This document shows, in pieces, positions 851 to 38,985 of a stretch of 64,000 bases of DNA. Below the pieces are notes generated by a model. The model made no database searches. It was not told the origin of the DNA and saw nothing but the letters and a program-made list of their open reading frames with translations. The stretch is from Salinirussus salinus (GTDB taxonomy: Archaea > Halobacteriota > Halobacteria > Halobacteriales > Haloarculaceae): NCBI RefSeq assembly GCF_009831455.1, contig NZ_WOWO01000002.1, positions 1-64,000 on the forward strand. The letters run 5' to 3'. Position numbers and translations under genes: made by a program. Each line of letters starts with the position of its first letter. Position 1 is the first letter of the stretch.

Positions 851-932
851 GTGTGGACGTGGGTCTGTGCGCTCAAAACCCGTTCGACGACGCTGGAGGA
901 AGTGCTTCGGTTCGTAATACCCGGTACGAGTG

Positions 933-1146
933 CTAGAAAGCCCCCGCGTTCTCGACTCGCGCGGCTCGCTGCGCTCCTCGTTACACTGCGGTGCTTGCGT
1001 CACCGGGCTTCGTCGAGAACGCGGCCCCCTCCAGTCCCACCCGGAGCCACACACCTCCCCAGCCGACTGCGCTCCTCGCTTCGCTGCGGTGCTCATCCCT
1101 CGCACGGCGGCTGTCGCGCGATGGACCGCGCGACAGCGCGCGCCAC
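933..1146 (-). repeat. Dispersed structured element, copy A
   Basis: Read on the minus strand from 1146 to 933 it begins with a hairpin (GCTGTCGCGCG pairing with CGCGCGACAGC, 6-nt loop), followed by boxes GTGCGAGGGATGAG, CGCAGTCGGCTGGGGAGG and GGGTGGGACTGGAGGGG. A perfect 13-bp stem follows (1012-1024 with 944-956), then GGGGCTTTCT. Copy B at 38609-38902 shares the order of boxes and the stem position, but the stem sequence differs. The 851-1255 stretch holds no credible gene; open frames in it are low-complexity Arg/Ser translations. It may be an RNA gene, an untranslated leader of the cupin gene or a non-autonomous mobile element. Confidence 0.75.
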
Positions 1147-1223
1147 ACAGTCGGTCCGGGTCTCCGAGGGGACTGGAGTTCTCCCGGGTCCATCTCGAAG
1201 CACTATCCGCCACCGTCGGCCGG

Positions 1224-38520: not shown

Positions 38521-38608
38521 ACCTGTGCTTGGGGCGGCGAGCCCGTAAGCCTCCCGGCTGCGGGGTGGTGTTCGGGGAGGTGGGGCCACCCACGGGATCT
38601 ACAGGACC

Positions 38609-38902
38609 TGGCGCGCGCTGTCGCGCGTATCTTCGCGCGACAGTCGCCGTGCGAGGGATGAGGAGCGCAGCGAACGCAGTGAGCAAGCACCGCAGTCGGC
38701 TGGGGAGGAGTGTGGCTGTGGGTGGGACTGGAAGGGGCGAGACGTTGCGGGAAGACGGACGACGCAAGCACCGCAGGGAGCGAAGCGACCGAGGAGCACA
38801 GCGAGTGCGAGGCCGACCGAATGGAGACCTCGGCCCGCTCGAACGGTGACTGCAGGGAACCGCGAGAGCCCCTCGACCGCAACGTCTCGGGGCTTTCTTG
38901 CA
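38609..38902 (+). repeat. Dispersed structured element, copy B
   Basis: Same order of boxes as copy A: hairpin (CTGTCGCGCG / CGCGCGACAG), GTGCGAGGGATGAG, CGCAGTCGGCTGGGGAGG (present here as CCGCAGTCGG-CTGGGGAGG), GTGTGGCT, GGGTGGGACTGGAAGGGG. A perfect 13-bp stem follows (38738-38750 with 38877-38889), then GGGCTTTCTTGC. The stem sequence CGAGACGTTGCGG is unlike that of copy A but placed identically, and the enclosed loop is longer (126 against 55 nt). Both loops contain GACGCAAGCACCGCAG. The rest of 38521-38985 holds no gene. Confidence 0.75.
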
Positions 38903-38985
38903 GGACTGAATCCCCATCCCGCTAAAGCAAACACCACCAGGCATCGCGGCCGAGGGTTCAAACCGCTGGGTGCGGTAACTCCAGT

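Follow-up and report, generated by a model that had tools for sequence, protein, structure and literature searches.

A covarying fold in short dispersed elements of Halobacteria with IS6-type termini

The window analyzed here, the whole 64,000-nucleotide stretch of DNA from Salinirussus salinus, holds two elements, A and B, that share a series of sequence boxes and a perfect 13-bp stem whose letters differ between them. The question that this locus raises is what kind of element keeps such a stem paired while its sequence changes, and in which molecule the pairing would matter. The preliminary description offered a structured RNA or a DNA element with variable inverted ends, and each option proved partly right.

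Extent and parts of elements A and B

All boxes of copy A (minus strand) and copy B (plus strand) were found at the places and on the strands first described, and the stem is indeed perfect in both, the arms pairing 13/13 in A and, with a different sequence, 13/13 in B. The elements themselves, however, are longer than the spans first quoted (A, 933 to 1146; B, 38609 to 38902), reaching from about 898 to 1208 and from about 38564 to 38938, with termini that are inverted, decayed, and located outside those spans. Their parts are as follows.

898..1208, minus strand: whole of element A with its termini; ends inferred from locus L220
1046..1143, minus strand: module 1 of A, with the 5' hairpin CTGTCGCGCG..CGCGCGACAG and the boxes GTGCGAGGGATGAG and CAGTCGGCTGGGGAGG
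936..1042, minus strand: folded unit of A, a covariance-model match of 113.5 bits
1012..1024 (read 1024-1012), minus strand: 5' arm of A, 13 nt, CCGCGTTCTCGAC
944..956 (read 956-944), minus strand: 3' arm of A, 13 nt, GTCGAGAACGCGG
38564..38938, plus strand: element B, whole, termini included; GGTGGTGTTCGG on one side and GGTGGTGTTTGCTTTAGC on the other
38610..38715, plus strand: module 1 of B
38720..38897, plus strand: folded unit of B, its distal part longer than in most units
38738..38750, plus strand: 5' arm of B, 13 nt, CGAGACGTTGCGG
38877..38889, plus strand: 3' arm of B, 13 nt, CCGCAACGTCTCG
38921..38938, minus strand: right end of B, GGTGGTGTTTGCTTTAGC, which matches the IS6-type terminus

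The inferred ends of A are GGATAGTGCTTCGA and, from the other side, GGAAGTGCTTCGG; L220, from which the extents of both A and B are deduced, has the same layout as A together with a 7/8 target duplication. Around A itself no target duplication is visible any more, the flanks being ACGGTGGC and TCCAGCGT, and that of B is not clear, with a match of 5/8 at best. The covariance model covers positions 38720 to 38832 of the folded unit of B, at 49.6 bits. In genome G001 (locus L202, C77), the site of A is occupied by what is apparently a decayed form of module 1, and an amidase gene there occupies the place of the carboxylase gene that adjoins A.

Across the family, the interior of the element consists of one or two units of ~110 nt, and paired units stand head to head, separated either by ~26 to 35 bp or by module 1. 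The order within each unit is GGGYGGGACTGAAAGGGG, the 13-bp variable stem, an internal loop, a distal hairpin, and GGGGCTTTC, with the tail towards the end of the element; beyond each tail there are a further ~40 bp and then a terminus of the form GGTNGTGTTYAG.... Whole elements with recognized ends measure ~220 to 600 bp, which is too short for a transposase gene. Module 1, as seen in A and B, is a second conserved part, comprising a CTGTCGCG hairpin, GTGCGAGGGATGAG, and CGGCTGGGGAGG, and its ~20 copies in the own genome and 5 in other genomes nearly always adjoin a unit. At L018 the 3' arm and tail are tandemly duplicated, 64 bp apart, and near position 3170 of L219 (G000:C4:43500-49800) lies a ~66-bp terminal-only remnant, in which two IS6-type ends are present and the interior is missing.

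Pairing and sequence turnover in the fold

The statistics of the stem were taken from 153 full cores, 34 from the own genome and 119 from other genomes, with 126 distinct 12-nt arm beginnings among them; the external cores were retrieved by an exact 19-nt head, so that the invariance of the head is partly by construction. Stem positions 2 to 13 are paired in 77 to 97% of these copies, versus shuffled means of 42 to 89%, and past position 13 to 14 pairing falls close to that of the shuffled arms. Position 1 of the stem is C-G in almost every copy and is thus uninformative on pairing. When further copies were checked for stems that do not pair, the majority were found to pair; the minority that fail include truncated units and the chimeric unit of L006, whose arms are unpaired and which is apparently a recombinant of two families.

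The complete fold was derived by aligning 58 units that represent many genera and contains 32 pairs, 25 of them with compensatory changes on both sides. Paired cells make up 95.0% of this alignment, versus 73.8 ± 0.7 when shuffled, and the covariation score is 0.527, versus 0.161 ± 0.008 when shuffled and 0.05 to 0.08 when partners are slid by 1 to 3 columns. The covarying pairs extend past the 13-bp stem into the distal hairpin, and between them stand letters that are unpaired and nearly invariant, namely, the GGG/GGG loop, AA (A49-A50), and CA (C97-A98). The basal pairs GAAAG/CTTTC, five in number, are nearly constant and therefore provide no evidence for pairing. The earlier proposal that pairing kept through changes of sequence reflects selection on structure is borne out by these figures, and it seems that selection acts on the fold, which is retained throughout Halobacteria even as its letters change.

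The strand that folds can be approached through imperfect pairs. On the head-to-tail strand, G.T outnumbers A.C by 62 to 21 in the 13-bp stem (P = 7.5e-6) and by 56 to 23 in the whole fold (P = 2.6e-4), both P values being optimistic because the copies are related and not independent. This excess of G.T over A.C on one strand indicates that the single-stranded form of the head-to-tail strand probably folds.

Termini, target duplications, and distribution

Well-preserved relatives carry IS6-family termini, GGTNGTGTTYAG... (type GG....TGTT), with 8-bp target duplications outside them, in agreement with the 8-bp duplications and GG...TGTT ends described for IS6 (PMC7986276); one author group doubts that the archaeal members belong to the IS6 family proper (PMC6807381). 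Exact 8-bp duplications were found in a first set at L043, L078, L103, L206, and L209 and in a second set at L008, L131, L137, L144, L285, and L287. Among 35 two-ended elements with recognizable ends, 7 match at 8/8 and 3 at 7/8, where ~0.1 is the estimated expectation. IS6-family transposase genes are present in 31/39 related genomes, and the ends of autonomous IS6 copies are the same as those of the element, ~697 to 704 bp apart, with exact 8-bp duplications in six cases (L226, L227, L228, L234, L237, and L244). For the IS6 gene of the own genome (L240), no matching ends were found in the stretch searched, and when longer elements bounded by the same ends plus an exact duplication were sought, only the short ones appeared. 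Judging from ends and duplications, we read the element as a putative MITE that would be at least partly mobilized in trans by an IS6-type transposase.

A terminus at ≤1 mismatch was found in 21/103 external units and in 0 control stretches, and for many of the remaining external units termini are at the control level. Stem pairing is independent of how well the IS6 terminus is preserved, with means of 11.1, 11.3, and 11.8 of 13 pairs. Copies of the unit also occur on haloarchaeal plasmids, and those in DL31, DL1, and Natrinema look solitary. Since most external units are without a clear IS6 end and these plasmid copies look solitary, IS6 need not be the sole vehicle; the ends may be lost by decay from units that retain the fold, or else some units spread by another route.

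Two copies had initially been described, and both are real, but the family to which they belong is large. Based on searches and individual stretches of the own genome, copy B as query gave 79 matches there, and there are 40 exact occurrences of the core GGGACTGRAAGGGG and 57 at ≤1 mismatch, versus 5 for the reversed pattern. The 40 exact cores of this genome (G000) compare with 1 in G001, a draft genome of the same genus that is 78% complete, and at the G001 site corresponding to L004 the element is absent, 20 unrelated bases standing in its place. Conservation outside this strain is extensive: a covariance-model search, with up to 15 matches listed per genome, detected the unit in 191/242 Halobacteria genomes, representing 63/74 genera. 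In a phylum-wide sample of 197 genomes, 30 matched, and 30/30 were from one and the same order. A viral collection searched with the exact 19-nt head gave no match. The family of A and B is a large one, made up of short mobile DNA repeats of halophilic archaea.

Two loci of genome G254, L281 and L282 (G254:C7, near 1577200 and 1814147), have exchanged outer ends, the right-type end flanking one copy on either side and the left-type end the other, and their 8-bp flanks match inversely. Recombination between the copies seems to have inverted the ~237 kb that they bound.

Candidate explanations and known relatives

We consider it probable, at roughly three chances in four, that A and B are old, non-autonomous MITE copies with IS6 termini and a conserved covarying fold, served by an IS6-type transposase in trans. 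Such a transposase would move the MITE, and the folded form would be single-stranded, as read-through RNA or as single-stranded DNA during replicative transposition. It may be recognized by a protein, because the unpaired letters between covarying pairs stay nearly invariant. RNA appears somewhat more likely than DNA as the folded form, because stems stay paired in units without a recognizable IS6 terminus. Of the two options first offered, the DNA element survives as a mobile MITE with IS6-type termini and 8-bp duplications, but not its variable inverted ends, the 13-bp stems being internal to the element. The structured RNA survives in the one or two folded, covarying units that the MITE holds, but has neither an Rfam match nor a TATA-like box. 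Indeed, the Rfam search gave only microRNA-like matches far below gathering scores; a TATA-like string was present in the 34 bp upstream of 1/169 units, which makes an own promoter unlikely, although one farther off is possible.

DDE transposases join to the target a strand whose 3' end lies towards the element terminus, and the folded strand of each unit points its 3' end the same way. Given this common polarity, the fold may conceivably have a role in transposition.

Four conserved G3 tracts, arranged as GGG-Y-GGG...GGG[hairpin]GGG, permit a quadruplex. A more speculative proposal, which we hold only tentatively, is that these elements represent an undescribed structured RNA family of Halobacteria carried on IS6-type MITEs, in which the G3 tracts might form a K+-dependent, protein-bound G-quadruplex. 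If that is true, a quadruplex would sit at the foot of a covarying hairpin, inside cells whose cytoplasm contains molar potassium, and would be bound by a protein of the host or of the transposon.

A structured RNA of the host, either a gene or a cis-regulatory element, that spread by copying and in some copies later gained IS6 ends would accord with the class-wide fold and with the units in many genomes and plasmids that have no recognizable IS6 ends and pair equally well. This origin is unlikely, however, as the stretch just upstream of the units has neither a conserved sequence nor a TATA-like box, and copy number within the genus differs as 40 to 1. Furthermore, unit tails show no clear orientation in a crude gene call, facing gene starts (18) and gene ends (27) alike, unlike a 5'-leader element.

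For the variation of the stems, the main rival to compensated mutation is a DNA mechanism that keeps pairing without selection, in which one arm is rewritten as the complement of the other by repair or template switching at quasi-palindromes. Correction of quasi-palindromes occurs in bacteria, and it would suit stems that are GC-rich and near-perfect and that recent copies share, differing by single letters. It should, however, also perfect the interruptions, and those between covarying pairs are nearly invariant and remain unpaired; nor would a strand-blind correction give more G.T than A.C on one strand. We regard it as improbable, more so than a host RNA. In the recent copies of G254, both stems are near-identical letter for letter, so that stem variation is not generated at each jump, and the left and right stems within one element are unrelated (6.0/13 identical, versus 6.5 for random pairs). 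Slow mutation, followed by compensation under selection for pairing, is the likeliest course of stem diversification.

Archaeal IS6 insertion sequences (ISH14, ISH17, ISH29, and relatives) share the type of termini and the 8-bp duplications with the element; they are ~700 bp long and encode a transposase, whereas the element encodes none, and the autonomous IS6 copies that were examined are without the folded unit. The BOX and Correia-type repeats of bacteria resemble the element in being short and dispersed with foldable transcripts, but they are unrelated in sequence and hosts. Among MITEs, ISfinder contains an IS6-family member, MITEHarch3 (PMC6807381), which by its name is probably from a halophilic archaeon and which may or may not be the element described here. 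The two such MITEs in a review of IS6, of 227 and 336 bp (PMC7986276), fall inside the size range of our element. MITEHsal2 of Halobacterium salinarum 91-R6 is a haloarchaeal MITE of 411 to 413 bp with duplications of 8 and 6 bp (PMC10264941).

The PATEs and SMRs of Haloquadratum are dispersed and transposase-free like the element, and PATEs are palindrome-rich; unlike the element, PATEs and SMRs make no target duplications, PATEs have no inverted repeats at their termini, and the ends of SMRs resemble those of no transposon, whereas the ends of the element are IS6-type (PMC3119063). A PATE or IS605-type derivative, in which the near-terminal palindromes that haloarchaeal PATEs have along with heterogeneous outer segments of 20 to 50 bp (PMC3119063) would be the hairpins, is highly improbable given the terminal inverted repeats and target duplications of the element and the inverted arrangement of its units, and the 8-bp target duplications led us to abandon the IS605/PATE and SMR readings.

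Neither the sequence nor a named haloarchaeal RNA of such a kind turned up in literature searches, and no description of a covarying fold in such elements was found in the literature searched. IS6-type MITEs are known; the class-wide covarying fold that they carry is new, and a covariance model is ready for annotating such repeats. If the MITE reading is right, the majority of haloarchaeal genomes hold a folded element that is absent from RNA family libraries, and compensatory change has kept its fold over the whole class. Whether the interior of a MITE is under selection as RNA or as single-stranded DNA would then become a testable question, as would the binding partner of the fold and its influence on neighboring genes.
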